Below, piece by piece: positions 1-41,385 of a stretch of 41,385 nucleotides of DNA. Position numbers and translations under genes: made by a program. Source of the stretch: Bacteroidales bacterium (GTDB lineage: Bacteria > Bacteroidota > Bacteroidia > Bacteroidales > UBA932); NCBI GenBank assembly GCA_017631435.1, contig JAGBTG010000052.1, positions 1-41,385 of the forward strand. The letters run 5' to 3'. How positions within the stretch are numbered: position 1 is the first letter of the stretch; every line of letters begins with the position of its first letter. Below the pieces are notes generated by a model that ran no database searches, was not told where the DNA came from, and saw only the letters and a program-made list of their open reading frames with translations.

Positions 1-5
1 GAAAG

Positions 6-845
6 ATGAAAATTTTGAAATATTTGACATGTTCATTGGCTTTGTTGGCAATGGTTACATCTTGTGACAAACACGAGATCCTATATGATACAGAGCCAGC
101 AAAAGCAGCTGAGTACCAGCTTCACTACTTTGAGCCTATCACCAATACCGCTACTAACTACATTGACTCAGTATACGTTAATGGAAAGCTTCTTTCAGGT
201 ATTGACGGTGGTGGTAACTTGGCTACATACAACGGTATCCCTGGCGGTTCTACAGGTAGATTCTTCACAGTTGAGCCAGGTGACGTTAACTTCAAGTTCT
301 ACAGAAAAGGTGAGGTTGTTTACGATCAGAACATTACCCTTACTGCAGGCAAACAGAACGTTATTGTTCATGACCTTAACAAACCAGGTATTGTACTTGA
401 CAACGGTTATCCTTACCAGCATGTTAGCGGTACAGCTACTGCTGCTACTTGGGGTACTGACTCGCTTGCTACAATCAAGTTTGTAAACGTAATGTATGAG
501 GCAGAGGGACAGCCATATGAGGGTAAACTTCAGTACCAGTGGCAGAACCCAAGAACCAAAGAGTGGGAGAACCTAGGTAACCCTGTTGGTTTTGGTGAGG
601 CTACTGACAGATGCCCTATCCTTATCGTTAAATCTGTATTCAACTCTGCAGGATACTGCCGTATTGACTACAGAATTCTTGACGAGAACGGTGAGTTGTT
701 CCAGCACTACAATTCAGGTGGAAAACCTGTTAACTATTCAGACTACTGGAATGGCTACATTGGACGTTCATACATGCACTTCCTAAGCGGTATCAGAACA
801 AACAAATCTACCAGAGTAGCTGTTAAACAGTGGACATCTCTATAG
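6..845 (+). CDS. Secreted lipoprotein of unknown function, possibly DUF4397-like
   Basis: A 279-residue protein with a lipoprotein signal peptide: basic start, hydrophobic stretch, then a lipobox (VTSC) that makes Cys20 the probable lipidated residue. The part after it (about 30-130) is rich in beta-type sequence, with a VYVNGK motif and a later TAGKQNVIVHDL stretch, which loosely resembles DUF4397 surface proteins. I am not sure of that family. The second half (about 150-279) has no motif I recognise. Codons are strongly biased (CTT for Leu, GGT/GCT, AAC), as in the EF-G-like gene at 32237, which suggests high expression. It is followed at once by a strong terminator. The start lies 6 bases into the window, so its promoter is not visible. 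Function is not assigned. Confidence 0.75.
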   Translation: MKILKYLTCSLALLAMVTSCDKHEILYDTEPAKAAEYQLHYFEPITNTATNYIDSVYVNGKLLSGIDGGGNLATYNGIPGGSTGRFFTVEPGDVNFKFYRKGEVVYDQNITLTAGKQNVIVHDLNKPGIVLDNGYPYQHVSGTATAATWGTDSLATIKFVNVMYEAEGQPYEGKLQYQWQNPRTKEWENLGNPVGFGEATDRCPILIVKSVFNSAGYCRIDYRILDENGELFQHYNSGGKPVNYSDYWNGYIGRSYMHFLSGIRTNKSTRVAVKQWTSL

Positions 846-863
846 TAGATCGCTTATTGAATT

Positions 864-897
864 GAGAGGCCGCGCCTTAGTGGCCTCTCTTTTTTTA
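864..897 (+). terminator. Rho-independent terminator after the lipoprotein gene
   Basis: A perfect 8-bp stem (GAGAGGCC at 864-871 with GGCCTCTC at 882-889) closes a 10-nt loop and is followed by seven Ts. It lies about 20 bases after the stop codon. Confidence 0.9.
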
Positions 898-923
898 ACG
901 GATAACCTTAATACATTATAGAA

Positions 924-1433
924 ATGAAAAAGATTATTCTAGTTATGTTGGCAATGGTACTTGCGTTGCCTTCATTTGCTCAGAAGCTTTCAAAAGAGGA
1001 GAAAGCTGCTTTGGCAAAAGCTCAGAATGAGAGTGCAGTTACTGCCATCAATGCTAAAGCATGGGTTATTGTACCTTCACAGTACCAGAAATCTGACGGA
1101 ACTCTTGAGAGCAATGTGGATCCTGCTATCTTCGTTTGCTGCGAGGGCGACAAGATGACTGTTCAGGGTTACATTTGCGGTGGAAGCAACTCTCAGGGCT
1201 ATCTTGTTGAGTTCAAGGAGTATAATCCAACCATTGACAAGAAAGGCAACCTTAAGATGCGACTTGTTGTAAACGGACGTATGATGAGAGGTATCTACCA
1301 GATTACCCTAAGAAACAACACAAACGTTGCTGACGTGATTTTCACACCTAACGGAAAGAGCCCTCTTAAGTTCCAGGGTCCTATTGTTCCTCTTGCAGGT
1401 GCAAACTACTACAAGAGATCAAATCCTATGTAA
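924..1433 (+). CDS. Small exported protein, DUF4251-like
   Basis: A 169-residue protein with a classical signal peptide ending near ALPSFAQ (cleavage about residue 20). The mature part starts with an Ala/Lys-rich helix (KEEKAALAKAQNES), then a beta-rich domain finishing with a FQGPIVPLAG stretch. This layout resembles the DUF4251 family of Bacteroidetes periplasmic proteins; I hold that only moderately. Codon usage is as biased as in the upstream lipoprotein gene. The terminator at 864-897 separates the two, so this gene probably has its own promoter in 898-923 or relies on readthrough; no perfect -7 box is visible. No catalytic residues can be named. Confidence 0.75.
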   Translation: MKKIILVMLAMVLALPSFAQKLSKEEKAALAKAQNESAVTAINAKAWVIVPSQYQKSDGTLESNVDPAIFVCCEGDKMTVQGYICGGSNSQGYLVEFKEYNPTIDKKGNLKMRLVVNGRMMRGIYQITLRNNTNVADVIFTPNGKSPLKFQGPIVPLAGANYYKRSNPM

Positions 1434-1462
1434 TAAGGAATCTCAAGTTTTTAGGTTAAATC

Positions 1463-1495
1463 AAAAAGGGAAAGCAGAAATGCTCTCCCTTTTTT
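1463..1495 (+). terminator. Rho-independent terminator
   Basis: The stem AAAAAGGGA (1463-1471) pairs with TCCCTTTTT (1486-1494). It continues inward by three pairs after one mismatch, and a T run is built into the descending arm. It ends the gene at 924-1433. Confidence 0.8.
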
Positions 1496-1539
1496 ACATA
1501 TATATAGGGGTATAAATCTATGCAGCAACATGTGCTTTT

Positions 1540-1566
1540 GACCATTTTGACGTCGTCAAAATGGTC
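1540..1566. repeat. Perfect 12-bp inverted repeat at the thyA stop codon
   Basis: Arms GACCATTTTGAC (1540-1551) and GTCAAAATGGTC (1555-1566) flank the 3-nt centre GTC. The right arm runs into the thyA stop codon (1565-1567, minus strand). No T run follows on either strand, so this is not a standard intrinsic terminator. It could be an mRNA 3' hairpin or a protein-binding palindrome. Confidence 0.8.
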
Positions 1567-2359
1567 ACACTGCAATAGGCGCTTTTATTACCGGATGCGG
1601 ATTGTAGTCTACAAGTTCAAAATCCTCATATTTGAAGCTGAAGATATCTTTCTGGTCTCCGTGGATAATCATTTTAGGTAACTCCCTCGGTTCACGTGAA
1701 AGCTGCAAAGCTACCTGCTCAAAGTGGTTCAGGTAGATGTGGGTGTCTCCGAATGTATGTACGAAATCCCCCAATTCATAGCCGCAAACCTTTGCAATCA
1801 TCATTGTGAACAATGCGTATGAAGCAATGTTGAACGGAACGCCAAGGAACACGTCTGCACTTCTCTGGTACAGCTGGCAAGAGAGCTTGTTGTCTGCCAC
1901 ATAGAACTGGAACATGGAGTGGCAAGGGGGAAGGGCCATATTGTCTACCTGAGCCACGTTCCACGCAGAGATGATGTGCCTGCGGGAATTTGGGTTCTCC
2001 TTAAGCTGTTTCATAAGGTTGGCAAGCTGGTCAATCTCTCCTCCGTCTGCAGTTTTCCAGTGTCTCCACTGTGCGCCGTAAACAGGCCCAAGCTCGCCGT
2101 TCTCATCTGCCCACTCGTCCCATATGGTAACGCCATGGTCGTTGAGATATTTTATGTTGGTGTCACCGTTTATGAACCACAAAAGTTCATAAATGATTGA
2201 TTTTAAGTGCACTTTCTTGGTTGTAAGCAACGGGAATCCATCATTGAGGTTAAACCTCATCTGGTATCCGAAAATGCTTTTTGTGCCGGTTCCGGTACGG
2301 TCTCCCTTAACCGTTCCTTCATCCATTATCTTTTTGAGAAGATCCAAATATTGTTTCAT
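1565..2359 (-). CDS. thyA: Thymidylate synthase
   Basis: Methylates dUMP to dTMP using 5,10-methylene-tetrahydrofolate, producing dihydrofolate, in the cytoplasm. The 264-residue length equals that of the common short bacterial ThyA. Visible signatures are the catalytic cysteine in [12 protein letters not shown] (about residue 146), the dUMP-binding [17 protein letters not shown] segment just after it, and the C-terminal [10 protein letters not shown] tail. A perfect -7 box lies only a few bases before the ATG, so the gene may have its own very short leader. It also sits only 30 bp after the secreted-protein gene on the same strand and could be read together with it. Dihydrofolate reductase, which recycles its product, is encoded divergently about 2.7 kb away. 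Confidence 0.97.
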
Positions 2360-2363
2360 TCTG

Positions 2364-2371
2364 CAAATTTA
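2364..2371 (-). promoter_or_regulatory. Bacteroidetes -7 box for thyA
   Basis: TAAATTTG on the minus strand matches TAnnTTTG perfectly. It ends 4 bases before the thyA ATG, implying a leaderless or nearly leaderless transcript. Confidence 0.55.
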
Positions 2372-2389
2372 TAAATTATCGGGAATAAA

Positions 2390-4978
2390 TTATTCTTCTT
2401 CTGCCGGAGGGTTTATGATATGCTCTCCCCAGATATACTCCCGGTGTCCTGTTTTGCCTTCAATTTCAACTCTATAGCTCCCTTTTTTGTGCTTGGTCCA
2501 GAATGTGAAAACTGCCTCTCCATTATCTGAGAGCTGCAGGTTGGGATTCCAGTACAAGGTGATGCGGTAGTCTGTATCCTTTGCCGTTTTCTCATAGTTT
2601 GGAGAGTAGAATCTCTTTGGCCTCTGCCATCCTATAGGGGAGCCCGTTGTTACGTTGGTAGGTATCAGTTGCTTTACATGAGGCTTTGTCCTTACCATAA
2701 GGACTGGTGTTGGAGATATTTCTCCAGACCCCGTATGGGCAGATGCCTCCAGCCCCTCAAGGTATACAAGGTTTTCCACCTGGTCGAGGCTGAGGTTCTG
2801 GATCTCTTCAAAATTGGATTGTGTACCATTCAGATAATACAATATAGGGAACCATCTTGGACCGCTCTGCATACTGCCTGATGCCCCAACGCGCCTGCCT
2901 AAAAGTCCAGCCCCTTCAGGGTTCCATCTTAAAGAAGGATACTGGCTTATGACATACGAAGGGATATCGTATGAGCTGGCGTATGGCTTTATGGCATCTT
3001 CATCCCTAATCCTGTCCCTGCGGATTGCAATATTGCGGTTTGGGGAAGGGGAGTTTTTCATTGTAATGTATGTGGATGTAACCACCACCGGATCAAGTTC
3101 AAGCGACATTGCGTATCCGTCTCCATAAAGGTTTTCCACCACAAGGTCCTTGTACTGCTTGCTGTATCTGACATTTTCGGGAGAGAGCGGGTACTGGTGG
3201 ATTTGTGCAAAATTGTCGGGAAACAGATGTGGAGTAAGGACACCTGCCCGGCCTTTTTTACCCACCGCAGATACAATGAAGTCTGTGTTCTCAGGGAAAC
3301 TGATGTCCTTAAGGACAAAATATCCCGAATCCACCTGGCCCATAGCAGTAAAGTTGATGGAAGGGGCAACAAACGAAACCACAGTGGTCTTGGCGTGTGT
3401 GAGCAATCCCTTTACTTCTCCCGACAGCGTCTGGGTATATTCCCTGCCAAAGCTTGGCTGCATAACAGTACCTTTAAGGATATTTGGAGTTTCATAATAC
3501 CTCCACCCCTGGGTCTGCATAAGCATATCTGCCTTGGCCATCCTCTGTTTAAGAGGTATGTCCCTGTTGAAGTATTGTGAAGGATTTGCAATATATCCCT
3601 CAACCTCACTCTTTAGAAGGAAGTATGATTCTATGTTCACGTTGTCAAGTTCCTGTACAAGACTGTTGTCTGTAACGGCAACGGACACATGCGGATTTTC
3701 TGCAGCAAGGGAGTCTTTTGCATATCCCGGCACCTTAATCCTGCACAGCACCTTTTCCCATGCCCCGTAATTGTCTTTGTCTGTGGTAATCCCAATCCTG
3801 TTTCTTTCTCCCGACGGCAATACAATGAAAGGACGCTCTGCATAAACATTGTTTGCCTTGTCCACTATGCTTACGCTGTGGGTACCTGGCTGCAACTGTG
3901 CAAGCCTTACGAAGAATGAAGACTCTGCAGAGGTAATCTCCTTAGACATAAGTATCTGTGATCCGTCATGCAGAACAGCATACAGTCCCTGCTGAAGTGC
4001 AGCCGGAGTTGCATTCACCCTGAACATCATGCGGCAATTTGGGGTGTATTCTGTTGTTCCCTGTACAATCATATTGCCTGTAATGGAAGCACCTTGGGCT
4101 TCTGCCTGTGGGAGCAGGAATGTCCTGCTGAACTCCATGGAGTCTGTAATGTATGCATACAGTTCTTCAGCAGCGGCATTAAATACTGTAAGTTTTGCTG
4201 TTCCGCTGGAATCGGTCTGGAACTTGCCTATCTGCCTGCCGTCCCCATCCCTTAATTCACCCCATAGAAGTGCCTCGTTTCCAAGGTTGTCCAGAGCCTT
4301 GATCCAGATTGTGTTTCTGAATCCTTGCAGGGAGTGTCCGCTTTCCGGCAAAAACTGTATATCATAATCTACTATAGAGGAGTCCTTCTGGTCCTGCCTG
4401 TCAATTGGAGCAATGGCATTCAGCTGGGTATATTTGTTTTTATCGGTGATACCCTTGTCTTTCATTTTGGCAAGAAGATCGTCGTTGAACGGATTGGTTA
4501 TGGCAATTTCCTTGTAGAACATATATTCTACAGGGCGGTTGAGCATCCAGTAAGTGTATGCCCTTACTATGCACTTTCCGGTACTTTGTTTGTCGGGAAT
4601 GACAATATGCCCCTGAAATCCTCCGTTGTGCCTCTTGAGTTTTATCCTTTTTACCAGAGAGGGTTCATAGAACGGGCGGTATCTCCATGAGGAAACATTG
4701 ATATTGAGTTGTGAGCTGATGAGCTCAACATATATGTAGTTTGATTCCGGGAATTCTGAGTTGTATGTTGCATTCTCCACATATCCGCTCACCCAGATGG
4801 TATCGCTGGCGTTATAGATGTCGCGGTCTGTGTGCAGGTATACCTTTTCCGGTGATATCAGGGTTGCAATGGCGTTGAATCTGCCGGCAGCAGTGGTGTC
4901 ATCAGGTTGTTGGGCCTTTAGGGAACCGCTGAATGTGCATAATAATGTGCATATTATGGTGAATATGATTCTTCTCAT
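2390..4978 (-). CDS. Large secreted protein with MG2-like N-terminus and TonB-plug-like C-terminal domain
   Basis: An 862-residue exported protein. I chose the ATG at 4978 over the upstream GTG at 5002: it begins directly with a signal peptide (MRRIIFTIICTLLC, cleavage near SLKAQ), and a perfect -7 box overlaps the GTG. After the signal comes an MG2/alpha-2-macroglobulin-like beta domain with the typical KVYLHTDRDIYNASDTIWVSGY sequence at roughly 30-55. The middle is a long beta-rich region. Around 690-790 there is a plug-like segment (YLNGT, then LDQVENLVYLEGLEASAH and a PVLMVRTK ending) resembling the plug domain of TonB receptors, but no barrel follows. Such proteins are common and poorly understood in Bacteroidetes; a cell-surface or periplasmic role is an inference. 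Confidence 0.8.
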   Translation of the reverse strand: MRRIIFTIICTLLCTFSGSLKAQQPDDTTAAGRFNAIATLISPEKVYLHTDRDIYNASDTIWVSGYVENATYNSEFPESNYIYVELISSQLNINVSSWRYRPFYEPSLVKRIKLKRHNGGFQGHIVIPDKQSTGKCIVRAYTYWMLNRPVEYMFYKEIAITNPFNDDLLAKMKDKGITDKNKYTQLNAIAPIDRQDQKDSSIVDYDIQFLPESGHSLQGFRNTIWIKALDNLGNEALLWGELRDGDGRQIGKFQTDSSGTAKLTVFNAAAEELYAYITDSMEFSRTFLLPQAEAQGASITGNMIVQGTTEYTPNCRMMFRVNATPAALQQGLYAVLHDGSQILMSKEITSAESSFFVRLAQLQPGTHSVSIVDKANNVYAERPFIVLPSGERNRIGITTDKDNYGAWEKVLCRIKVPGYAKDSLAAENPHVSVAVTDNSLVQELDNVNIESYFLLKSEVEGYIANPSQYFNRDIPLKQRMAKADMLMQTQGWRYYETPNILKGTVMQPSFGREYTQTLSGEVKGLLTHAKTTVVSFVAPSINFTAMGQVDSGYFVLKDISFPENTDFIVSAVGKKGRAGVLTPHLFPDNFAQIHQYPLSPENVRYSKQYKDLVVENLYGDGYAMSLELDPVVVTSTYITMKNSPSPNRNIAIRRDRIRDEDAIKPYASSYDIPSYVISQYPSLRWNPEGAGLLGRRVGASGSMQSGPRWFPILYYLNGTQSNFEEIQNLSLDQVENLVYLEGLEASAHTGSGEISPTPVLMVRTKPHVKQLIPTNVTTGSPIGWQRPKRFYSPNYEKTAKDTDYRITLYWNPNLQLSDNGEAVFTFWTKHKKGSYRVEIEGKTGHREYIWGEHIINPPAEEE

Positions 4979-5001
4979 GGCTGCGTAATTGGCTATATAC
5001 A

Positions 5002-5009: not shown

Positions 5010-5050
5010 ACGAAAATCTTTCTAAATTAGCACCTTTAATTTGGATTATT

Positions 5051-5560
5051 ATGCTTTCACTAATAGTAGCCGTAGCCCAGAACGGGGCAATAGGGAGGAA
5101 CAATGAACTCCTGTGGCACATATCAGAGGATTTGAAGTATTTCAGGAGCACCACAACCGGCCATCCGGTAATTATGGGGCGCAATACATATGAGTCTATA
5201 GGGCGTCCTCTTCCGGGAAGGAGAAACATTGTCCTTACCAGAGGGGAGATAGATTTCCCTCCAATAAAGAATCCGCAGACCACGTCAATTGAGATTGTCC
5301 GTTCTCTGGATGAAGTGTTCTCCATTGCACAGGGAGAGGAGGAGTTCTTCATTATGGGCGGCGGAATGCTCTATAATGCAACTGTCGGGAAGGCAGATGC
5401 ATTGTACATCACAAGAATATTTGCAGAGGTGGATGATGCAGATACATTCTTCCCCGAGATTGATGAAAATATCTGGGAGGTTGCCCGGGAGGGGGAGGTT
5501 CTGCACGATGAGGAGAATGATATTGACTTTCAGTTTGTAGTATATAAAAGGAAGAAATAA
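5051..5560 (+). CDS. folA: Dihydrofolate reductase
   Basis: Reduces dihydrofolate to tetrahydrofolate with NADPH in the cytoplasm, the step that recycles the product of thymidylate synthase. At 169 residues it has the usual size. Seen: the N-terminal strand and IGRNNELLWHISEDLKYFR loop/helix with the acidic active-site residue in SEDLK, the NADPH-binding GRNTYESIGRPLPGR segment, and the MGGGMLYNATVGKAD glycine motif. The stop codon overlaps the ATG of the first NSS transporter by one base (TAATG), so the two are co-translated. No perfect -7 box is seen upstream; a one-mismatch copy sits at 5036-5043. Confidence 0.97.
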   Translation: MLSLIVAVAQNGAIGRNNELLWHISEDLKYFRSTTTGHPVIMGRNTYESIGRPLPGRRNIVLTRGEIDFPPIKNPQTTSIEIVRSLDEVFSIAQGEEEFFIMGGGMLYNATVGKADALYITRIFAEVDDADTFFPEIDENIWEVAREGEVLHDEENDIDFQFVVYKRKK

Positions 5561-6900
5561 TGGCTAAGAGAGACAGTTTTGCCAGCAGCTTTGGAGTGTT
5601 GGTGGCCATGGCAGGTTCTGCTGTGGGATTGGGCAACTTGTGGAGATTTCCATATTTGGTAGGAACAAACGGCGGTGCGGCCTTCATTATAATTTACCTT
5701 GCAATTGTATTTGTACTGGCTATGCCAATCATGTACTCTGAGTTCATTCTTGGACGCAGGGGGCAGAGCAATGTGTACAGTGCATTCAAGAAAATGGCTC
5801 CGGGAACAGGGTGGAAAGTTACCGGTATCCTGGCTATAGTGTGCTGTATTCTTATTGTGTCGTTCTATTCCGTAGTGGGTGGATGGACAATAGACTATAT
5901 GGTTAAGGGTATGATGTTCAAGTTTACATCAGATTCTGCTGCCTTGGGAGGCATGTTTGAGCAGACTGTTACCTCAAGCTGGCAGCCGCTGCTTTATATG
6001 GCTTTGTTTGCAGGACTGTCGGGAGCAATATTGCTGGCAGGTGTGAAGGATGGCATTGAGAGGTACTCCAAGGTGCTTATGCCGCTGCTGTTCCTTATGG
6101 TGGTGGTGATTGCAGTCCGTTCTGTAACCCTTCCGGGGGCCGGTGCGGGACTTGACTTCCTTTTCAAGCCCGATTTCTCAAAAGTAACAGCAAATACCTT
6201 CCTCGATGCCCTTGGACAGGCATTCTTCTCGTTGAGCGTTGGTTTTGGTATCATATTCACTTATGCTTCTTATGTGAACAGGGGAGAAAACGTGGTTAAG
6301 ATGTCGGTGCAGACTGCAATGGCTGATACCCTGTTTGCAATCCTTGCGGGAGTGGCAATCATGCCTGCGGTGTTCTCGTTCGGTATTTCGCCAAGTCAGG
6401 GTCCCGGACTTGTGTTTGTAACCTTGCCGTATGTTTTTGCGCAGATTCCTTTTGGAGGCATCCTTGCAATATTGTTCTTCTTTGTGCTGTTCATTGCGGC
6501 AATCACCTCTTCAATATCATTGTTGGAAGTTATTGTGGCATACGTGATAGAGGAGTTCAAATGGAAGAGAAGTGTTGCCGTGGCATCGGTACTTGCACTT
6601 GTAATCTTTCTGGGTGCATTCTGCTCCCTTTCACAGGGTGTGCTTGCAGATGTAAAGATTCTTGGCAACAATATCTTTGATACTTTTGACAAGTTTACCG
6701 CCAATATCCTTATCCCTCTTGGAGCACTGCTGATTGTGCTGTTTGCGGGATGGAAGATGAAGAAAGCGGATTTTATGGATGAGATTACCAGTGGCGGTAA
6801 GCATAAGATAAACCCGTTGTACCTGAAGATTGTCATTGTCTCTGTGAGATATGTTGCGCCGGTGGTTATAGCGGTAATTATGATTAGAAGTCTTATTTAA
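5560..6900 (+). CDS. Sodium-dependent neurotransmitter:sodium symporter (NSS/SNF) family transporter, copy 1
   Basis: A 446-residue inner-membrane symporter predicted to bring in an amino acid or related compound with Na+. The family hallmark in TM1, GSAVGLGNLWRFPYLVGTNGGAAFIIIYL (about 18-46), carries the unwound Na+/substrate site. About 11-12 hydrophobic segments follow, including the TM6 region with SFGISPSQGPGLVF. Bacterial members of this length are LeuT/MhsT-like; the substrate cannot be read off. The start overlaps the folA stop. The next gene is a close paralogue, so this is a tandem duplication. Confidence 0.92.
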   Translation: MAKRDSFASSFGVLVAMAGSAVGLGNLWRFPYLVGTNGGAAFIIIYLAIVFVLAMPIMYSEFILGRRGQSNVYSAFKKMAPGTGWKVTGILAIVCCILIVSFYSVVGGWTIDYMVKGMMFKFTSDSAALGGMFEQTVTSSWQPLLYMALFAGLSGAILLAGVKDGIERYSKVLMPLLFLMVVVIAVRSVTLPGAGAGLDFLFKPDFSKVTANTFLDALGQAFFSLSVGFGIIFTYASYVNRGENVVKMSVQTAMADTLFAILAGVAIMPAVFSFGISPSQGPGLVFVTLPYVFAQIPFGGILAILFFFVLFIAAITSSISLLEVIVAYVIEEFKWKRSVAVASVLALVIFLGAFCSLSQGVLADVKILGNNIFDTFDKFTANILIPLGALLIVLFAGWKMKKADFMDEITSGGKHKINPLYLKIVIVSVRYVAPVVIAVIMIRSLI

Positions 6901-8290: not shown

Positions 8291-9226
8291 TTACACCAGA
8301 TCCCTGAAGATCTCCTCCACAGACTCAATCCGGGTAACCATTGAGCAGATCTGTCCAATCTCTATTTCACCCTCATTTATGTCACCCTCAAAGATACCTT
8401 TGCGGGCGCGTCCTTTGCCAAGGTAGGCTGCAAGCTCCTCTTTTGAGGCGCCGCTCTCCTCCATTGCGGCAACATTGGTGGTGAACTCACTTCCCTGCGC
8501 AAGACGGGCAGGGGCAAGCTTTTTAAGGTATAGCTTGGTTGCTCCCTCAGGCATTCCAAGACAGTGCTTCTTGAAGTTCTCGTGGGCCGAGCTCTCGGCG
8601 GAGAGGGCAAAGCGGGTGCCAATCTGAACACCGTCTGCGCCCAGTGCCTGGCATGCTGCAATCTGGCATTTTAGGGCAATGCCGCCTGCAGCAATCAGCG
8701 GAAGTGAAGTGGCCTGGCGCACTGCAGGGATAAGGCATAGGGTAGTGGTCTCCTCGCGGCCGTTGTGTCCGCCGGCCTCAAACCCTTCGGCAACTATGGC
8801 ATCCACTCCGGCCTCCTCGCATTTCTTTGCAAAAACGCTGCTGGAAACCACATGCACCACGGTCATGCCGTGCTCTTTCAGGTATGGAGTCCATTTCTTT
8901 GGACTGCCTGCAGAGGTGAATACAATCTTCACCCCCTCCTCAACAAGGATACCCATAAGCTCATCTATCTGCGGATACATCAGCGGCACATTTACGCCAA
9001 ACGGCAGATCCTTGCCGGTATTGTTGCCAGGGGCTCCGGCTTTAAGGGCAGCTTTGCACTGCTGGATGTGGTATCTCAAGGTGTCGGGATGCATGCTTCC
9101 TGCACCCAAAAGGCCAAGGCCTCCGTTAAGGCTCACTGCAGATGCAAGTCTCCATCCGCTGCACCACACCATTCCTCCTGATATTATAGGGTGCTCAATT
9201 CCAAACAGTTTGCAAATCCTATTCAT
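8291..9226 (-). CDS. Nitronate monooxygenase / FabK-like FMN-dependent TIM-barrel protein
   Basis: A 311-residue FMN enzyme of the 2-nitropropane dioxygenase/NMO superfamily, which includes nitronate monooxygenases and the enoyl-ACP reductase FabK. Seen: an N-terminal IEHPIISGGMVWCSGWRLASAVS barrel start, a GVNVPLMYP strand, the EGFEAGGHNG motif with the conserved His (about 150-160), and the FMN phosphate-binding LIAAGGIA and GADGVQIGTRFALSAES segments. The sequence does not decide between nitronate oxidation and enoyl reduction. The start overlaps the 3' end of the YfhO-like gene by 8 bases, making it the last gene of a four-gene minus-strand operon. Confidence 0.85.
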   Translation of the reverse strand: MNRICKLFGIEHPIISGGMVWCSGWRLASAVSLNGGLGLLGAGSMHPDTLRYHIQQCKAALKAGAPGNNTGKDLPFGVNVPLMYPQIDELMGILVEEGVKIVFTSAGSPKKWTPYLKEHGMTVVHVVSSSVFAKKCEEAGVDAIVAEGFEAGGHNGREETTTLCLIPAVRQATSLPLIAAGGIALKCQIAACQALGADGVQIGTRFALSAESSAHENFKKHCLGMPEGATKLYLKKLAPARLAQGSEFTTNVAAMEESGASKEELAAYLGKGRARKGIFEGDINEGEIEIGQICSMVTRIESVEEIFRDLV

Positions 9227-18349: not shown

Positions 18350-18453
18350 GTTTATTAAGCTGCAAGACTTGTATCAAAAAGGGGAAGGCGACAAAGGTAA
18401 TTTGTGTGCATTGTAAAATCTGCCATTAGAATTCAAAGTTATTGATTGCGTTT

Positions 18454-19134: not shown

Positions 19135-19206
19135 TCTATTTTTTTATAAGATTCTCCCTAGTTTTTGCCTTTTTGTATCCTGAAGGAGAGTCAGGTCTGA
19201 TTCCCT

Positions 19207-22044: not shown

Positions 22045-22089
22045 CTGTATTGTTGTCAATTAATTGTCGGGAAGAAATTGTCGGGAAGA

Positions 22090-27619: not shown

Positions 27620-27660
27620 TCCCGACAGGTCCTCCGTACTGCAAAAAGAAACTGTCGGGA
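27620..27660. repeat. Inverted pair of the TCCCGACA octamer
   Basis: TCCCGACAG (27620-27628) and CTGTCGGGA (27652-27660) form a perfect 9-bp inverted repeat with a 23-nt loop, in the gap between the S46 peptidase and mrp. No T run follows on the minus strand. Uptake-sequence systems also use inverted pairs at gene ends. Confidence 0.7.
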
Positions 27661-32236: not shown

Positions 32237-34390
32237 ATGAAAACTTACAATACCAGTAATGTGCGTAATGTGGTACTGTTGGGAAGTTCCAAATCGGGAA
32301 AGACCACATTCGCTGAGACAATGATGTTCGAGGGTAAAGTTATTGAGAGAAGAGGTACAATTGAGGCTAAGAACACTATGAGTGACAATACCGAGATTGA
32401 GCAGATTTACCAGAGATCAATTTATTCTACACTTCTATACACAGAGTTTCTTGACACAAAATTCAATATCATTGATACCCCGGGTTCAGACGACTTCGTA
32501 GGTGGTGTGTATTCAGCATTCTCAGTTGCTGAGAACGGTATCCTTCTTGTAAATGCCACTCAGGGCGTTGAGGTTGGTACCGAGATCTTTGCACGTCACG
32601 CTGTGAAACATCAGAAACCTCTTATCATTGCCGTTAACCAGCTGGATCATGAGAAACAGGACTGGCAGGCAACCATCGATTCATTGAAAGCTACTTTCGG
32701 AAACAAGGTTGTATTGGTTCAGTACCCTGTTAACCCAGGTGTTGAGTTTGACACTTTCATTGATGTCTTGAAGATGAAGATGTACAAATTCAAGGATGAG
32801 AACGGTACCCGTGAGTCATTTGAGATTCCTGAGGAGTACAAGGAGGAGGCTTTGGCATTGCACCAGCAGCTTGTTGAGATGGCGGCAGAGAATGACGAGA
32901 ATTTGATGGAGACATTCTTTGATAAAGGCCAGCTTACTGAGGACGAGATCAGAGCAGGTATGAAAGTAGGTATGCAGTTGGGTGACATCCTTCCAGTATT
33001 CTGCTTGTCTGCTAAGAAAGATATTGGTGTTAAACGTATCATGGAGTTCACCATCAACGCAGGTATTACTCCCGACAAAGTTGACAATCTTACTAAAGAG
33101 GGTGAGGCAGTTAAAGTTGATTCAAACGGCCCTACTTCAATCTTCGTATACAAAACTGCACAGGAGCAGCACTTGGGCGACGTTTCATACTTCAAGGTAA
33201 TGAGCGGTAAGCTTACTGAGGGTATGGATGTTGTAAACCCTGAGACCGGCGCTAAAGAGCGTATTGCACAGATTTACGCTGTAGCAGGTAAAAAACGTGA
33301 GAAAGTTACCGAGGTTATGGCAGGTGACATTGCTTGTACAGTAAAACTTAAATCAGTTAAGACTGGCCAGACACTTTGTGCTCCTGGTTGCGAGACTGTA
33401 TTTGAGCCAACCCATTTCCCTGCACCTAAATTCCGTACAGCTATCAAAGCTAAAGTTGAGAAAGACGAGGAGAAATTGGGCGAGATCCTTAACAAGGCCA
33501 ATGCAGAGGACCCAACAATCTTGGTTGAGTACTCAAAAGAGTTGAAACAGACTATCATCAGCGGTCAGGGTGAGCACCATATCAACATCCTTAAATGGCA
33601 GCTTACAAATACCCATAAGATTGAGGTTGACCTGTTTGCTCCAAGAATCCCTTACCGTGAGACAATTACCAAAATTGCAACTGCAGACTACCGTCATAAG
33701 AAACAGTCTGGTGGAGCAGGCCAGTTTGGTGAGGTACACATCCTTATTGAGCCTTACTACGAGGGCGCTCCTGAGAACAACAAGTTCAAAGTTGACGGCC
33801 AGGAGATGGTTCTTAACGTAAAAGGCAAAGAGGAGTATCCACTTGAGTGGGGTGGTAAACTTGAGTACTACAACTGTATCGTAGGTGGTGCAATTGACGC
33901 ACGCTTCATGCCGGCTATCCTTAAAGGTATCATGGAGAAAATGAACGAGGGCCCTCTAACAGGTTCTTACGCACGTGATATCAGAGTTTACGTTTACGAC
34001 GGTAAGATGCACCCGGTTGATTCAAACGAGATGGCGTTCAAACTTGCTTCACGTAACGCATTCAAAGAGGCGTTCAAGAAAGCCGGTCCTAAGATCATGG
34101 AGCCTATCTACAACGTGGAGATCCTTGTTCCAAGCGACTGCATGGGTGATGTAATGAGCGACCTTCAGAACCGCCGCGCAATGATTGAGGGTATGAACAG
34201 CGTTAAAGGCTTTGAGGTACTTAAAGCAAGAGTTCCACTAGCAGAGCTTTACAAATACTCAACCTCATTGAGCTCACTAACCAGCGGTAGAGCAACCTTC
34301 ACAATGGAGTTTGCAGACTACCAGCAGGTTCCTTCAGACGTTCAGGAGAAACTTTTGAAAGCATACGAAGCAGAGGAGAAAGACGAGTAG
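32237..34390 (+). CDS. fusA2: EF-G paralogue of the Bacteroides EF-G2 (FusA2) type
   Basis: A 717-residue translation elongation factor G homologue with all domains present: G domain, domain II (about 305-390), domains III-V (about 400-700, with RIPYRETI and AGQFGEV). The G domain is atypical: P-loop GSSKSGKTT (16-24), G3 motif DTPGSD where canonical EF-G has DTPGH, so the catalytic His is replaced by Ser84, and NQLD (134-137) for NKMD. Bacteroides thetaiotaomicron EF-G2 is reported to support translocation without GTP hydrolysis under carbon limitation; this protein has the features expected of that group. Codons are strongly biased to high expression. A perfect promoter and terminator make it a single-gene unit. 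Confidence 0.88.
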   Translation: MKTYNTSNVRNVVLLGSSKSGKTTFAETMMFEGKVIERRGTIEAKNTMSDNTEIEQIYQRSIYSTLLYTEFLDTKFNIIDTPGSDDFVGGVYSAFSVAENGILLVNATQGVEVGTEIFARHAVKHQKPLIIAVNQLDHEKQDWQATIDSLKATFGNKVVLVQYPVNPGVEFDTFIDVLKMKMYKFKDENGTRESFEIPEEYKEEALALHQQLVEMAAENDENLMETFFDKGQLTEDEIRAGMKVGMQLGDILPVFCLSAKKDIGVKRIMEFTINAGITPDKVDNLTKEGEAVKVDSNGPTSIFVYKTAQEQHLGDVSYFKVMSGKLTEGMDVVNPETGAKERIAQIYAVAGKKREKVTEVMAGDIACTVKLKSVKTGQTLCAPGCETVFEPTHFPAPKFRTAIKAKVEKDEEKLGEILNKANAEDPTILVEYSKELKQTIISGQGEHHINILKWQLTNTHKIEVDLFAPRIPYRETITKIATADYRHKKQSGGAGQFGEVHILIEPYYEGAPENNKFKVDGQEMVLNVKGKEEYPLEWGGKLEYYNCIVGGAIDARFMPAILKGIMEKMNEGPLTGSYARDIRVYVYDGKMHPVDSNEMAFKLASRNAFKEAFKKAGPKIMEPIYNVEILVPSDCMGDVMSDLQNRRAMIEGMNSVKGFEVLKARVPLAELYKYSTSLSSLTSGRATFTMEFADYQQVPSDVQEKLLKAYEAEEKDE

Positions 34391-34508: not shown

Positions 34509-34915
34509 GGCACGTTTTGATGCCTCAGTGTGCCCAATGGTGGTCAGGCGGGCACATTTTTGTTTGATTTTGTTCCCCACAGAGGGTGTCAGTTGCCCTT
34601 GTGGCACATTTTGGTGCTACAACGTGCCCACTTGGCGGCAGGCGGGCACATTTTAATGCGTTTCCGTGCCCGTTCGCTGTTTTTCTGCTGCTCCGGGCAC
34701 ATTTTGGCGGCTCAGCGTGCCCATTCGGCGGTAGGCGGGCACATTTTTGTTTGATTTTGTTCCCCACAGAGAGATGTGGGTTCCTCCGGGGCACGCCAGG
34801 ACCCTCCAGTGTGCCCGTTGTGCGGCAGGCTGGCACGTTTGAATATCGTTCCGTGCCCCATAGGGTGCTGCCGTAGCCGTCGGGATACAAAAATTACTTT
34901 CAACGTGCCCAATGA
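34509..34915. repeat. Left REP-like array, four units
   Basis: Units start with GGCAC at 34509, 34603, 34696 and 34790 (spacing 94, 93, 94). Each unit holds GGCACrTTTTGG-like sequence, a facing CGTGCCCA, an AGGCGGGCACATTTT and a variable tail, so GGGCAC/GTGCCC inverted repeats recur about every 30-50 bp. Unit 2 has a distinct tail (AATGCGTTTC, GTGCCCGTTC), while units 1 and 3 share TTTGATTTTGTTCCC. A degenerate fifth end (CAACGTGCCCAATGAGCAGC) lies at 34901. No convincing gene lies inside. Confidence 0.9.
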
Positions 34916-35060
34916 GCAGCTGTCGGGAATACTTGTCTTACCTTCTGTCCCCGTAGAAATAGATGCCATAATCGGAGTAAATTTTTTTAGGAAAAAGAAA
35001 AATCTCTGCAACTGCAAAGAAAAATTTCTTTTTCAGGCATAGTTCTGCCTGTGCAACCGG

Positions 35061-35068
35061 TAGCTTTG
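35061..35068 (+). promoter_or_regulatory. Bacteroidetes -7 box for the RAYT gene
   Basis: TAGCTTTG, a perfect TAnnTTTG, 21 bases before the ATG at 35090; it excludes the in-frame GTG at 35051 as a start. Confidence 0.55.
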
Positions 35069-35089
35069 GGAAACGTAAAAAACAATATC

Positions 35090-36013
35090 ATGAACACAGA
35101 AAACTTGCACATAAAGGAATTTGATGAGAGTGCACCTCTATGGCACTTGTGTACACCTGGTGATGATACAGCCGGTGTAATTTTCAGGAAGCGTGAAGAC
35201 TTTGTGTTTGGGATGAACATGATGGCCTTGTGCGCCCACTTGCACTATGAAGAAGTGGAACTGTACACATTTCAGCTGATGAACAATCATGTCCATATTT
35301 TATTGCAGGGCGAGCCGCATCGGGTAACAGTTTTTTTCAATGACTTTAAAGCGCGTATTGGCAGATGCCTTCGTAAGCAAGGGCGCCAATCGGACATGAA
35401 AGGATTTGAGGCCACATTACACCCCATCCTTAACATTACATACTTGAGAAATCTGCTCGCCTACATAAACAGGAATAGGTTCCTGGTAGATTTGTGGGAA
35501 ACGCCGTTCACATATCCGTGGGGCGCCAACAGTTTCTACTTCAACAAATACACCGGCATATTCAACAGAACATGGCTTAAGGATATCTCTGTCCGCGCCA
35601 AAAGAAAAATCTTTCACACTCACGAATGCTCATTCCCTGAAAACTACTACATGATATGGGGTTACGTCTCGCCGGAATGCTATTGCTCAATCAAAAAAGG
35701 GGAAAGCCTTTTCCAGAACGCACATGATTATTTCCAACTTATTTCCCGACAGGTAGAGTCGTTTGCCGACATTGCCCGCACCCTTGGAGACAAGATATTC
35801 TATACTGATGAACAAATGAACACTGCCGCAATAGATATTGCAAAAAAACTCTTTAACACTGCGAAACTTCTTACCCTGGACAAAAGTCAGAAACTGGAGA
35901 TGGCCAAGCAGCTCCGCTTCCGCTACAATGCCTCGGTTAGCCAAATCAGGAGAATCCTACATATAGAAGAGAAGATCCTTCAGAACATGTTTCCGGAGAA
36001 TGTCCGCAAATGA
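35090..36013 (+). CDS. REP-associated tyrosine transposase (RAYT, Y1/HUH family)
   Basis: A 307-residue relative of the IS200/IS605 Y1 transposase. Seen: the HUH metal motif HVH at 67-69 in MNNHVHILLQG, the candidate nucleophile Tyr125 in NLLAYINRNR, and an amphipathic helix with FKARIGRCLRKQ between them. The C-terminal third (about 220-307) is an additional helical region with an ISRQVESFADIARTL stretch and a QLRFRYNASVSQIRRIL helix-turn-helix-like part, plausibly DNA-binding. RAYTs cut and join REP palindromes at GTAG-like tetranucleotides and are single-copy domesticated transposases. Here the gene lies exactly between two four-unit repeat arrays. No terminal inverted repeats or partner TnpB are present. 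Confidence 0.87.
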   Translation: MNTENLHIKEFDESAPLWHLCTPGDDTAGVIFRKREDFVFGMNMMALCAHLHYEEVELYTFQLMNNHVHILLQGEPHRVTVFFNDFKARIGRCLRKQGRQSDMKGFEATLHPILNITYLRNLLAYINRNRFLVDLWETPFTYPWGANSFYFNKYTGIFNRTWLKDISVRAKRKIFHTHECSFPENYYMIWGYVSPECYCSIKKGESLFQNAHDYFQLISRQVESFADIARTLGDKIFYTDEQMNTAAIDIAKKLFNTAKLLTLDKSQKLEMAKQLRFRYNASVSQIRRILHIEEKILQNMFPENVRK

Positions 36014-36050
36014 TACTTTGCTCCCGACAGATGGGGGCAGTAACCTCTTT

Positions 36051-36420: not shown

Positions 36421-36436
36421 TAAAATTATTGATATA

Positions 36437-37849: not shown

Positions 37850-37861
37850 CGGGAAGAAAAA

Positions 37862-38527
37862 TTAGAGTTGCTGCAGTATCTGGCCGTCTTTCATCTCAAT
37901 GCAGCGGTCGCACATGCGGGCCAGTTCCATCTCGTGGGTTACTATTACAATTGTCTGGTTGTATTTCTCGCGGAGCATGAAGAAAAGTTTGTGCAGCTCC
38001 TCCTTGTTGCGGCTGTCGAGGTTTCCCGACGGCTCGTCTGCAAGCAGCACTGCCGGGTTGTTCATCAGCGCCCTGGCAATGGCTACCCTCTGCTGCTCTC
38101 CGCCGCTCAATTGGCCGGGTTTATGGGAAAGTCTTCCCCCCACACCAAGTTCCTCCAACAGCATTCTGGCCCTGGCCTCAACCTCTTTGCTCCCCCACTT
38201 TGCTCCCCCTATCAGGGCCGGCATCACAACATTCTCCAGAGCCGAAAACTCCGGCAGCAGATGATGGAACTGGAATACAAATCCTATCTCCCTGTTGCGG
38301 AAGGCTGCAAGGGATTTGTCGGGAAGAGAAAAAATGTCTGTGCCTGCAATCTTCACTTTTCCTCCTTGCGGTTTCATCAGTGAACCCATGATGTTGAGCA
38401 AAGTGCTCTTGCCCGCGCCGCTGGCTCCCACAATGCTCACCACTTCCCCCTTGGCTACCTGCAGAGATACCCCTTTGAGCACCTCCAGTTCTCCGAATGA
38501 TTTGTGTATGTTTTCCAGTTGGATCAT
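37862..38527 (-). CDS. lolD: ABC transporter ATP-binding protein, LolD/MacB type
   Basis: A 221-residue nucleotide-binding subunit. The start is the ATG at 38527 ([11 protein letters not shown]); the open frame extends 46 codons further but through the promoter and a duplicated non-coding block. Seen: Walker [10 protein letters not shown] (34-42), Q-loop in [20 protein letters not shown], signature LSGGEQQR, Walker [13 protein letters not shown] and the H-loop IVTHEME. This is the LolD/FtsE/MacB subfamily, which drives lipoprotein release (LolCDE) or related MacB-type permeases. The cognate permease is not adjacent. trmN6 follows in the same operon. Confidence 0.88.
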
Positions 38528-38546
38528 ATTCTGCTGCTTTGATTTA

Positions 38547-38554
38547 CAAAGGTA
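38547..38554 (-). promoter_or_regulatory. Bacteroidetes -7 box for lolD-trmN6
   Basis: TACCTTTG on the minus strand, a perfect TAnnTTTG, 19 bases before the ATG at 38527. The duplicated block starts just beside it at 38556. Confidence 0.6.
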
Positions 38555-38555
38555 T

Positions 38556-38996
38556 TTAAATAAATTGATGCCATCAATCGGAAAACGCAGTATTTTAAGG
38601 CTCAAATTTATAGGAAAACGCACCTGGATTTTCAGACATAATGCAGCTTGTAAGAAAAATTTCATTCAGGCCTGCTTCTTGTTTTTATAAACCGCTGAGA
38701 TTGTGCTTTTTATCTAAAGTATTCAAGAACTGCCGTGTAAGACTGTTTTACGGCCCGGCGCCCATTTTTACAATTTTAAAAGGTAAATTTGTAAAAACTT
38801 GTTGAAGCAAAACCCATGAGGCAGCTTGTCATCACACTACTTATAGTTATTTCATTAGTTTCTTGCAGCAACACTTACAGCCAGCTGCAGGAAATAGAAT
38901 CATACATAGAAGAGGACCCCAAAAGGGCACTGGAAGAGATTCGTAATATTACTCCCGACAATCTCCTTTCCCCAAGGACCAAAGCAAAGCATGCCC
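38556..38996 (+). repeat. Direct duplication, copy 1 (promoter region plus start of TPR gene)
   Basis: Matches 40973-41385 with scattered differences, covering about 260 bp of non-coding DNA and at least the first 60 codons of the TPR gene. Copy 1 holds an extra 33 bp, bounded by two GGAAAACGCA repeats (38580-38589 and 38613-38622); copy 2 retains only one, as expected from a slippage deletion. The right edge of the match is cut by the window end. Confidence 0.9.
38784..38791 (+). promoter_or_regulatory. Bacteroidetes -7 box for TPR regulator 1
   Basis: TAAATTTG, a perfect TAnnTTTG, 24 bases before the ATG at 38816; conserved in the second copy at 41170. Confidence 0.65.
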
Positions 38997-40465
38997 TGCT
39001 CCACTCCATGGCCCTTGATAAAAACTACATAGACCTCACCACCGACTCCATCATCGCCCTAGCTGTGAAGTACTATTCAAGGCATGGTTCAGCGGATGAC
39101 AGGTTGCTGATGCATTACTATATGGGGAGGATATATGCAAATGATGGGAATCTTGATAAGGCAGCTATTGAATATACAAGGGGAGAAGAATTGGTAGATG
39201 ATGCGGAAAATAAGGTGGCGGCAGGCAGGTTGTATACAGTCTTTGCTACTGTATACAACAAGACTAACAATGCTAAAAAAGAGATAGAGTATGCACAGAA
39301 AGGATATGCCTTTTTTAAAGAGATGAATTATATTGAACGTTCGGAAGTAGCAAAAGGTAAATTAGCTATGGCATATGCAAATAACCGAGTTTTCAATGAG
39401 GCAGATTCTTTATTTGAAGAGTGTTTGGAAGCTTTAACCGAAGATACAGTATCAATGGCAAAGTATTTAGGACATTATGCCCGGTTAAATGTTTTAAAGC
39501 CTGATCCGGAGCCGGAGAAAGCAATATTGTTATTGGAAAGGCGGCGCAAAGAATATAATAAAGCTTTGACCCCCGGCTTATATTGTGTGTATGCATATGC
39601 CCTGCAGCAATTAGGCAGGTTAGATGAGTGTGATAATATATTGGAGCAACTTAAGGAAACTGGTTATAAAGAGTTGGACTTCTGGCAGTATCGTATCTAT
39701 AAACATAGAAATCAATATGAGCAAGCTATGGCTCATTTGGAAAACAGTGCGAAAAAATATGAGTATCAAATGATAAGTTTGCTGTCTGACAATACTGATA
39801 ATGCTTTAAAGGATTATTACTCTTCAGAGGCTGAGAAAACCAAAATGGAGATGAAAATAAAAGTTATGTCACTTGTAACGGCAATACTCGCTGTGGTAAT
39901 GATATTGTCTGTTGTTATCTTAAAGTTGATGTTTATCAACAGGAAGAAGCAGCGGGCAATGGAGACGTATCTTGATATGTATGAAAACGCTAGTAAAAAG
40001 CTGGCCGATTATGATGCGCAAATTGATGAGCATAACAGTAAACTGAATATCTTGAGAGCATCGTTTTCGCAGGTGTACAAAAAACAATTCACAACAATAG
40101 GAGATTTGTGTCTAACCTATCTGACAAAGCAAGGCAAAAAAGATGTAAAGGATCATATTTATCGGAAAGTTGAAAAACTGATTGCAAACATCAGTTCAGA
40201 TGAGAAACTGCATAGCCAGTTAGAGAATAAGATTAATGCGGAACTTGATAATATAATCCTGCATCTGAGGAATGATTTGCCAAAATTGTCAAACGATGAT
40301 ATGAGATTCATTTGCTATTGCATTATAGGCTTTGATGCCACTCTGATATCAGTTATTCTCAATTTTTCAATGGAAAACGTGTATACCAAGAAATCCAGAT
40401 TAAAGGCAAAAATCAATGCCCTTAATTCTCCATATAAAGAAAACTATTTGATGTATATCCAGTAA
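38816..40465 (+). CDS. TPR-containing membrane regulator with C-terminal LuxR-like helix-turn-helix region
   Basis: A 549-residue protein. The N-terminal signal with a lipobox-like LVSC (Cys17) is followed by about 300 residues of helical repeats of TPR type (for example DRLLMHYYMGRIYANDGNLDKAAIEYTRGEEL). A membrane helix lies near 352-373 (VTAILAVVMILSVVILKLMF), then basic RKK, a coiled coil, and a cytoplasmic tail. The end, SNDDMRFICYCIIGFDATLISVILNFSMENVYTKKSRLKAKI, has the spacing of a LuxR-type HTH. The layout suggests an outside sensor coupled to DNA binding; the signal is unknown. Base composition changes around 39050 from GC-balanced to AT-rich, and only the first part is clearly shared with copy 2. 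Confidence 0.8.
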   Translation: MRQLVITLLIVISLVSCSNTYSQLQEIESYIEEDPKRALEEIRNITPDNLLSPRTKAKHALLHSMALDKNYIDLTTDSIIALAVKYYSRHGSADDRLLMHYYMGRIYANDGNLDKAAIEYTRGEELVDDAENKVAAGRLYTVFATVYNKTNNAKKEIEYAQKGYAFFKEMNYIERSEVAKGKLAMAYANNRVFNEADSLFEECLEALTEDTVSMAKYLGHYARLNVLKPDPEPEKAILLLERRRKEYNKALTPGLYCVYAYALQQLGRLDECDNILEQLKETGYKELDFWQYRIYKHRNQYEQAMAHLENSAKKYEYQMISLLSDNTDNALKDYYSSEAEKTKMEMKIKVMSLVTAILAVVMILSVVILKLMFINRKKQRAMETYLDMYENASKKLADYDAQIDEHNSKLNILRASFSQVYKKQFTTIGDLCLTYLTKQGKKDVKDHIYRKVEKLIANISSDEKLHSQLENKINAELDNIILHLRNDLPKLSNDDMRFICYCIIGFDATLISVILNFSMENVYTKKSRLKAKINALNSPYKENYLMYIQ

Positions 40466-40496
40466 GTGGCGCTAAATTTTGTGATGATGTTTTGCC

Positions 40497-40527
40497 GGTG
40501 TAAGATTTTTTTTCTTACACCTTTTTT
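40497..40527 (+). terminator. Rho-independent terminator after TPR regulator 1
   Basis: A perfect 8-bp stem GGTGTAAG (40497-40504) / CTTACACC (40514-40521) followed by six Ts. Confidence 0.85.
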
Positions 40528-40609
40528 AGTGCGGTTGTAATATTCACAAAATGAGTAGGTTATAAAATGCGCATTTTGTAGAAATTCTATTTTTTATCTT
40601 TCAGCCCTG

Positions 40610-40617
40610 TAATTTTG
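40610..40617 (+). promoter_or_regulatory. Bacteroidetes -7 box for the small secreted ORF
   Basis: TAATTTTG, a perfect TAnnTTTG, 28 bases before the ATG at 40646. Confidence 0.6.
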
Positions 40618-40645
40618 TGAAACCAATATTTCAAAAAATTACATT

Positions 40646-40894
40646 ATGAAAAGATTTTATTTTTTGCTGGTGGCATTTTTTGTATGTCACCTTCACGCAG
40701 GGGCTTCTTCTGTAATGGAAATAGAAAATCTAGGTAGGATAAAGGAGCTAATAAACAATGGTGTTGTGGCAAAGATTGATGGGAAGACGCAATTTGATGC
40801 AGAATTAACAGAACGATATAATGAGATGTTAGGTATTTCTTTTAGCTCTTTAGAGGAAGCTTTCTGCACTGTTTTTGCTGCAGACTGGTTGTGA
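40646..40894 (+). CDS. Small secreted protein, possibly frameshifted
   Basis: An 82-residue product with a clear signal peptide (MKRFYFLLVAFFVCHLHAGASS); I recognise no family. The mature part is acidic and helical (MEIENLGRIKELINNG, DAELTERYNEMLG). It has its own perfect -7 box and follows the terminator of TPR regulator 1, so it is a separate unit placed between the two TPR genes. The frame stops at AADWL, but the +1 frame remains open to 40976 and reads TGCDMSLHAPADNGF then TLEQAKYFHMEHATD. A one-base insertion near 40885 would join the two into a product of about 109 residues. Otherwise the tail is chance or a separate 26-codon ORF (40896-40976). Confidence 0.55.
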   Translation: MKRFYFLLVAFFVCHLHAGASSVMEIENLGRIKELINNGVVAKIDGKTQFDAELTERYNEMLGISFSSLEEAFCTVFAADWL

Positions 40895-41169
40895 CATGAG
40901 TTTACATGCGCCAGCAGATAACGGATTTACCTTGGAGCAGGCCAAATATTTTCATATGGAGCATGCAACAGATTAAATAAATTGATGCCATCAATCGGAA
41001 AACGCACCTGGATTTTCAGGCATAAAGCAGGCTTGTAAGAAAAATTTCTTTCAGACCTGCTTTCTGCTTTTATAAACCGCTGAGATTGTGCTTTTTATCT
41101 AAAGAATTCAAGAGCTGCCGTGTAAGACTGTTTTACGGCCCAGTGCCCTATTTATACAATTTAAAAAGG

Positions 41170-41177
41170 TAAATTTG
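41170..41177 (+). promoter_or_regulatory. Bacteroidetes -7 box for TPR regulator 2
   Basis: TAAATTTG, identical to the copy-1 box, 24 bases before the ATG at 41202. Confidence 0.65.
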
Positions 41178-41201
41178 TAAAAACTTGATGAAGCGAACCC
41201 C

Positions 41202-41385
41202 ATGAGGCAACTTGTCTTAACACTACTTATAGCAACCCTGACTATTTCTTGCAGCAACACTTACAAGCAGCTGCAGGAAATAGAATCATACATAGAAGAG
41301 GAACCCAAAAGGGCACTGGAGGAGATCCGTAATATTAATCCCGACAAATTCCTGCATTCCCCAAGGACCAAAGCAAAGCACGCCC
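41202..41385 (+). CDS. TPR membrane regulator, copy 2 (5' end only)
   Basis: The start of a paralogue of the gene at 38816; the rest lies beyond the window. The visible 61 codons give a lipoprotein-type signal (MRQLVLTLLIATLTISC, Cys17) followed by SNTYKQLQEIESYIEEEPKRALEEIRNI, nearly the same as copy 1. One codon has been inserted near position 50 (KFLHSPRT against NLLSPRT). Promoter, leader and start context are conserved with copy 1. It is expected to be a membrane-anchored TPR regulator like copy 1, but this cannot be confirmed from the fragment. Confidence 0.75.
   Translation, partial: MRQLVLTLLIATLTISCSNTYKQLQEIESYIEEEPKRALEEIRNINPDKFLHSPRTKAKHA

Follow-up and report, generated by a model that had tools for sequence, protein, structure and literature searches.

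A highly iterated octamer with dialects in a genus of Bacteroidales as the candidate core of a DNA uptake sequence

The well-established uptake sequences belong to the Neisseriaceae and the Pasteurellaceae and are read by minor pilins, known or predicted. We suggest that a comparable word exists in the Bacteroidales. The stretch of DNA analyzed here, a contig of 41,385 nt from a Bacteroidales bacterium (JAGBTG010000052.1 in assembly GCA_017631435.1; hereafter the window), carries the octamer TCCCGACA, or TGTCGGGA on the opposite strand, at a density far above expectation, and this octamer is probably the core of a DNA uptake sequence (DUS) for natural transformation, judging from its distribution in the window, in the genome to which the window belongs (G000) and in related genomes.

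In Haemophilus influenzae and the Pasteurellaceae, the uptake signal sequence (USS) has an AT-rich tract after its 8-9-base core, and occurs about once per 1-2.5 kb in both orientations. The present word likewise has a core with an AT-rich extension, a similar density and both orientations; it differs in that its A-rich positions lie at +10, +11 and +13, counted from where the core begins, and in that a type IV pilus ATPase was not found above the cut-off. The DUS of the Neisseriaceae lies inside and outside genes, as does the word here. Both are short, present in very many copies and split into dialects that follow phylogeny among related species (PMC3630211), whereas phylum and word are different, no pilus-type ATPase scores above the cut-off to accompany a ComP-like minor pilin, and the Bacteroidales word is a putative uptake sequence. 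Another likeness is to the highly iterated octamer HIP1 of cyanobacteria, which has alternate words in some relatives (PMC4390886); HIPs, however, are palindromes tied to methyltransferases, whereas the window word is non-palindromic and G000 has no match to the C5-methyltransferase domain. Closest in taxonomy are Riemerella and Porphyromonas gingivalis, of the same phylum, whose transformation needs ComEC and helix-hairpin-helix proteins and for which the outer-membrane route is described as unknown or novel (PMC8459023, PMC11532111, PMC7965970). No established uptake word was seen for them in these sources, and the k-mer table for R. columbina was left open by its authors. Because P. gingivalis requires both ComEA and ComEC while its outer-membrane DNA route is unknown (PMC11532111), and because R. 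columbina prefers its own DNA (PMC7965970), word-guided uptake independent of pili is plausible in this phylum. A literature search over titles and the beginnings of abstracts, in incomplete listings, returned no uptake sequence reported for the Bacteroidales.

Counted on both strands of the window, the octamer lies at 29 sites, in both orientations, against an expectation of 0.4-0.8 (0.76 by dinucleotide shuffling, 0.41 under an order-2 Markov model), and a C-variant, TCCCGACG / CGTCGGGA, lies at eight, again in both orientations. The heptamer TCCCGAC is present 37 times, 17 on the plus and 20 on the minus strand, where 2.62 are expected by dinucleotide shuffling; none of 100 such shuffles matched the observed number of octamers or heptamers. 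An earlier note on this DNA, made by eye, had given about 36 heptamers, followed by A in 29 cases and by G in seven, never by C or T; our recount bears this out, with A in 29 and G in eight. Its near-equal split by orientation stands, although its numbers (19 and 17) differ from ours, and its coordinates for TCCCGAC on the minus strand are those of the heptamer, the octamer beginning one base earlier.

The excess extends to the whole of G000 (2,166,856 bases, 59 contigs, 88% complete), which holds 915 octamers (447 forward, 468 reverse), about one per 2.4 kb and some ten times the 89 copies (41 + 48) of the reversed pattern used as a control, so that the genome-wide frequency is far from expectation. 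Synonymous-codon tests were made on 411,683 bases of the 2.17 Mb (the window and 20 further stretches), with simple purpose-written gene callers that also served the flank and octamer-ranking tests. Genes in these stretches contain 159 copies against 7.4 (standard deviation 2.8, maximum 16) in 50 shuffles of synonymous codons within genes, and the copies fill all six classes of orientation and frame. Under the same null the octamer ranks first among all octamers in 226 long open reading frames (ORFs) of G000 (149 against 5.3), with overlapping words in the ranks below it; in G034, a single-contig relative of 2.23 Mb sampled in 56 stretches (1.12 Mb), it ranks second, behind an overlapping word. 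That codon or composition bias makes the word might be argued from the LSG and xPDx contexts that dominate among in-gene copies, and from a milder excess that is common in the order, since other genomes reach up to about 115 copies per Mb (the highest density, by eye, among 392 sampled, in G177, with 334 copies against 85 of the reversed control; G000 has 422 per Mb). An in-gene number some 20-fold above synonymous shuffling, together with the rank of the octamer, nevertheless excludes codon bias for G000, and copies are denser still outside genes; we give this explanation virtually no credence. The view of the earlier note that the word is an uptake-type or other genome-wide signal, and not a product of codon bias, is thus upheld, and neither of the two outcomes that it had named as refuting was obtained. 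The same shuffles showed several TCGA- or GATC-containing words to be strongly depleted in the genes of G000 and G034 (for example ATCGAGAA, 2 against 25.4 in G000, and AAAAGATC, 14 against 69.6 in G034), perhaps through restriction avoidance.

The octamer is embedded in a longer motif, Y-YGTCGGGA-RNAANA. Around TGTCGGGA in G000, position -1 is C in 61% and T in 32% of copies and +8 is A in 55% and G in 22%; A stands at +10 in 77%, at +11 in 52% and at +13 in 56%, and there is further A-richness upstream, between -3 and -7. The tail is also present on copies inside long ORFs, where A occupies +10 in 75% (one-off control words, 37%) and +13 in 59% (controls, 23%); it is therefore not a by-product of AT-rich gaps. 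In G034, C stands at -1 in 95% of copies and A at +13 in 76%. In the G000 stretches, CGTCGGGA occurs 88 times within genes and only twice between them. The ratio of TGTCGGGA to CGTCGGGA is 42:2 between genes against 159:88 within them (p 1e-5), which suggests that T may be the favored base, with C accepted where the protein sequence requires it. Counts of one-off words in G034 point to tolerance at positions 1 (C), 2 (A) and 6 (C, T, A); positions 2 (G to A) and 6 (G to C), both tolerated there, are where TGTCGGGA differs from ATCGCGAT, a word abundant in other genomes of the genus.

TCCCGACA was counted in 37 genomes of this genus and ATCGCGAT in 39. The former ranges from 11 to 985 copies per genome: 11 genomes have at least 465, two have 229-245, four have 112-154 and 20 have at most 77. 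The latter reaches at least 127 sites in 13 of the 39, and none of these 13 has TCCCGACA above 77, so that the TGTCGGGA-rich and ATCGCGAT-rich sets do not overlap. Between them stand intermediate dialects, in G034, G001, G009, G012 and G013: TGTCGCGA is high in G034 (215) and G001 (104), and ATCGGGA in G009 (1109), G013 (731), G012 (714), G007 (573) and G015 (555), the reversed pattern giving 76-139. Both TGTCGGGA and ATCGCGAT are scarce in G008 and G035, and decay or loss of the word therefore also occurs. A rough, midpoint-rooted ComEC tree of 30 of the 39 genomes, in which several rows include upstream non-coding residues and which is to be read for broad grouping only, places the 12 ATCGCGAT-rich genomes that it covers (of 13) together in a 15-row group (support 96/88), with G034 and G001 beside it. 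The simplest reading would be a stepwise change from TGTCGGGA through TGTCGSGA and RTCGSGA to ATCGCGAT, the direction of which is not proved. TCGCTGA-type words were considered as a further dialect of the ATCGCGAT genomes and rejected, the heptamer being about 2-fold and ATCGCTGA about 5-fold above synonymous shuffling, in codon-like contexts.

Copies are about twice as dense between genes as chance would place them: 42 of the 201 in the G000 stretches lie in the 11.7% of DNA that is intergenic (p 1.4e-4), and in G034 82 of 369 are intergenic (p 6e-9). With the replichores of G034 set by cumulative GC skew, 198 copies are on the leading and 172 on the lagging strand (p 0.19), a leading share of 0.535, lower than the 0.587 shown by 300 of its anagrams; if the sign of the local skew is used instead, the split is 201 to 169 (p 0.11). 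A strand bias about the origin, which the earlier note had proposed as a check, thus yields no polarity beyond composition. Neighbors no more than 60 bp apart are inverted in 13 of 14 pairs (7/8 and 6/6); in the window, inverted pairs are formed by the TGTCGGGA copies at 11838-11845 (+) and 11882-11889 (-), and by those at 27620-27627 (-) and 27653-27660 (+). The lowest-GC 5% of 4-kb intervals in G034 hold 0.29 copies, against 1.45 in the 20-40% GC band. Two stretches of G034 are poor in the motif: L204 (one copy), where three of nine ORFs of at least 200 amino acids were scanned and yielded a weakly Cas12-like protein and a helicase, and L208 (no copy), where three of 13 yielded O-antigen-type genes. 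At 4751-12210 of L204, the Cas12-like protein, of 1295 amino acids and with a RuvC domain, is close to a helicase that carries a TBP domain of the TOTE type.

We posit that the pattern works like a DUS with dialects. The dialects, the AT-rich extension, the near absence of polarity and the presence of ComEC and ComEA-type proteins favor uptake over other genome-wide signals. ComEC (PF03772) was found in 38 of the 39 genus genomes, the exception, G005, being a 350-contig assembly, and the ComEA-type domain HHH_3 in all 39. HHH_3 also occurs in longer proteins; by our reading of the table every genome has a shorter frame (191-450 amino acids) with a match, and the only example read, in G034, is a ComEA-like protein of 394 amino acids that likely has an N-terminal membrane anchor. 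In the proposed mechanism, a surface or periplasmic DNA-binding protein would prefer DNA carrying Y-YGTCGGGA-RNAANA; the preferred fragments would cross the outer membrane by a route without type IV pili, be passed to the ComEA-like helix-hairpin-helix protein, enter via ComEC and recombine. Tagged fragments being taken up more often, tags that arise by chance point mutation would spread through the population and accumulate over the genome in both orientations, and drift of the reader protein would be followed by drift of the tag, giving rise to dialects within the genus. Competence, the reading of the motif during uptake and this mode of accumulation are what we infer. On balance we lean toward pilus-free recognition of self-DNA in the Bacteroidales, in which a non-pilin reader would select YGTCGGGA and its A-rich tail, and in which reader and word would have shifted jointly, by steps, inside a single genus (TGTCGGGA, TGTCGSGA, RTCGSGA, ATCGCGAT).

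A number of observations weigh against this reading and are set out together here. In the best-known cases uptake sequences are read by type IV pilins, and we know of no competence assay for this lineage. PF00437, the family of PilB/PilT/GspE-type ATPases and the only pilus-related family searched (pilins and the secretin were not), is above the Pfam cut-off in none of the 39 genus genomes, against 13 of 14 control genomes; most of the 39 are incomplete, and single-contig G034 agrees. Matches below the cut-off, in 31 of the 39, look to us like short P-loop pieces. The pilus genes that the earlier note had listed as a check were thus sought through this one family and not found above its cut-off, and because no pilus-type ATPase scores above it, the word cannot have the same kind of reader as Neisseria, with its pilin receptors. 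For the same reason, and because uptake is here predicted from sequence, we do not claim formal membership of the DUS or USS. The ComEC of G000 matches the core Competence domain only, and ComEC and HHH_3 do not track richness in the motif, since motif-poor G008 and G035 carry both. DUF5689, part of a candidate DNA-binding protein of Riemerella (PMC8459023), was rejected as the reader: it is patchy (21 of 39 genomes), and of the 11 TGTCGGGA-rich genomes nine lack it, G000 among them. Placement raises further difficulties. Regular spacing was not found, gaps being near random with coefficients of variation of 1.03 and 0.88; low-GC intervals of the G000 stretches are not depleted (2.0 copies in the 5% of lowest GC and 1.95 in the 60-80% band); in G034 local GC skew is a weak predictor of orientation (Spearman 0.33, p 0.013), an effect that the G-rich composition of the word can explain; and a low-GC stretch of G034 (L230, 2166-19150) has six copies in one orientation only. 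The scarcity in foreign DNA that marks DUS and USS is thus clear in most low-GC intervals of G034, L230 excepted, and is not seen in the G000 stretches. Four of the six copies in L230 are preceded by similar TTTTTA or TTTA runs.

Conservation between relatives, also proposed as a check, gave a divided answer. Against L060, a Bacteroidales record at 79% identity, two of nine sites are identical, and with 17.6% for all 8-mers this is no excess, a further point on the negative side. Against the congener G006 (83%), four of seven TGTCGGGA sites are identical over a background of 25.5% (p 0.075), and six of nine with the C-variants, both of which are identical (p 0.011), which is suggestive. The window copies identical in G006 are 16876-16883 (+), 22079-22086 (+), 22687-22694 (-) and, in L060 as well, 24020-24027 (+), with the CGTCGGGA variants 15847-15854 (-) and 17557-17564 (-); 9082-9089 (+) is identical in L060. 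Sites missing in the relatives are mostly substitutions (six of seven in L060 by substitution alone, one with a 1-base gap; two of three in G006, the third in a gap), and copies therefore come about chiefly through point mutation, which counts against a mobile repeat.

That notion, of REP/MITE-type repeats spread by a RAYT-like Y1 transposase encoded at 35051-36013, starts from a Y1_Tnp match in the window that is weak (E 1.6e-4, short of the cut-off) and is flanked by copies at 34878-34885 (+, a CGTCGGGA variant), 34921-34928 (+) and 36022-36029 (-). RAYTs read GTCG-like tetramers, and GTCG lies inside the motif. Genes, however, hold most of the copies (159 of the 201 counted in the G000 stretches), the stretch that copies have in common is only about 15 bases long, and the missing sites in aligned DNA of L060 and G006 are mostly substitutions, which makes this origin highly improbable. 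The word could instead be the binding site of a chromosome-organizing or nucleoid protein, or a guide for recombination or segregation in the manner of Chi or KOPS, in keeping with its spread over the genome and with the weak skew correlation in G034. Chi and KOPS are clearly polar, whereas the leading-strand surplus in G034 is smaller than that of the anagrams, and a Chi/KOPS-like polarity beyond composition was rejected there. A change of dialect within one genus would be unexpected for a site of conserved recombination or segregation proteins, and scarcity in most low-GC DNA of G034 is not predicted; we regard this alternative as unlikely.

We have a similar doubt about the HIP1-like alternative, in which an orphan DNA methyltransferase, together with linked repair, makes or keeps the word and the dialects reflect methyltransferase specificity; it too is improbable. 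High copy number, dialects and the palindromic form of one of them (ATCGCGAT) would fit, and the alternate HIPs of cyanobacteria come with matching methyltransferases (PMC4390886). The C5-methyltransferase domain (PF00145) is present in seven of 13 ATCGCGAT-rich and two of 11 TGTCGGGA-rich genomes; it is missing, however, from the other six and from the other nine (G000 and G034 among them), in a search that did not include the N6-adenine and N4-cytosine classes. TGTCGGGA, moreover, is not palindromic, and a methylation site would not be expected to have the specific A-rich tail seen here, 10-13 bases from where the octamer begins.

If the octamer is indeed read during uptake, gut bacteria of this lineage would limit recombination to their own kind, and the dialect of the word would predict which species exchange DNA. 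A word with dialects also offers a handle on its reader, which should bind the word and vary with the dialect across the genus (39 species genomes).

The window is placed in the Bacteroidales by its Pfam matches (S46 peptidase, DUF2027, Smr, MutS and others) and by its MutS, an 87% match to L060, a record from roe deer rectum; an Rfam scan of the window gave nothing at gathering scores. Its remaining TGTCGGGA copies lie on the plus strand at 3214-3221, 4591-4598, 5383-5390, 6017-6024, 15570-15577, 18282-18289, 22065-22072, 25511-25518, 27464-27471, 30401-30408, 30682-30689 and 38317-38324, and on the minus strand at 3419-3426, 29843-29850, 33070-33077, 35744-35751, 38953-38960 and 41339-41346; the remaining CGTCGGGA variants, all on the minus strand, are at 3809-3816, 9288-9295, 27266-27273, 31007-31014 and 38024-38031. 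The ORF at 35051-36013, with its weak IS200-like Y1 transposase match and motif copies on both sides and inside, is possibly a RAYT-type protein. The AT-rich patch at 18350-20427 contains no copy, as the earlier note had said of 18350-20428, but little weight attaches to this, because so short a patch should hold only about one or two copies anyway. The patch (about 2.1 kb) has two ORFs, of 226 and 254 amino acids, with no Pfam or NCBIfam match, and is missing from the aligned DNA of G006, which joins 18347 to 20428 by about 4 bases. A search of a plasmid collection gave one short match, to a Parabacteroides record, which was not used. In G034 (C1:636162-637930), the match to aspartyl-tRNA synthetase falls in two overlapping frames, owing either to a frameshift or to an error of assembly. 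The window perhaps has a second iterated word, weaker than the first, since CCTTAAGG is counted 12 times on both strands (six sites) against 1.5 expected, and TCCTTAA/TTAAGGA 26 times against 6.3. Lastly, the 25 bases preceding the copies at 38953 and 41339 are closely alike, which suggests a second copy of the 549-amino-acid TPR-like gene at 38816-40465.

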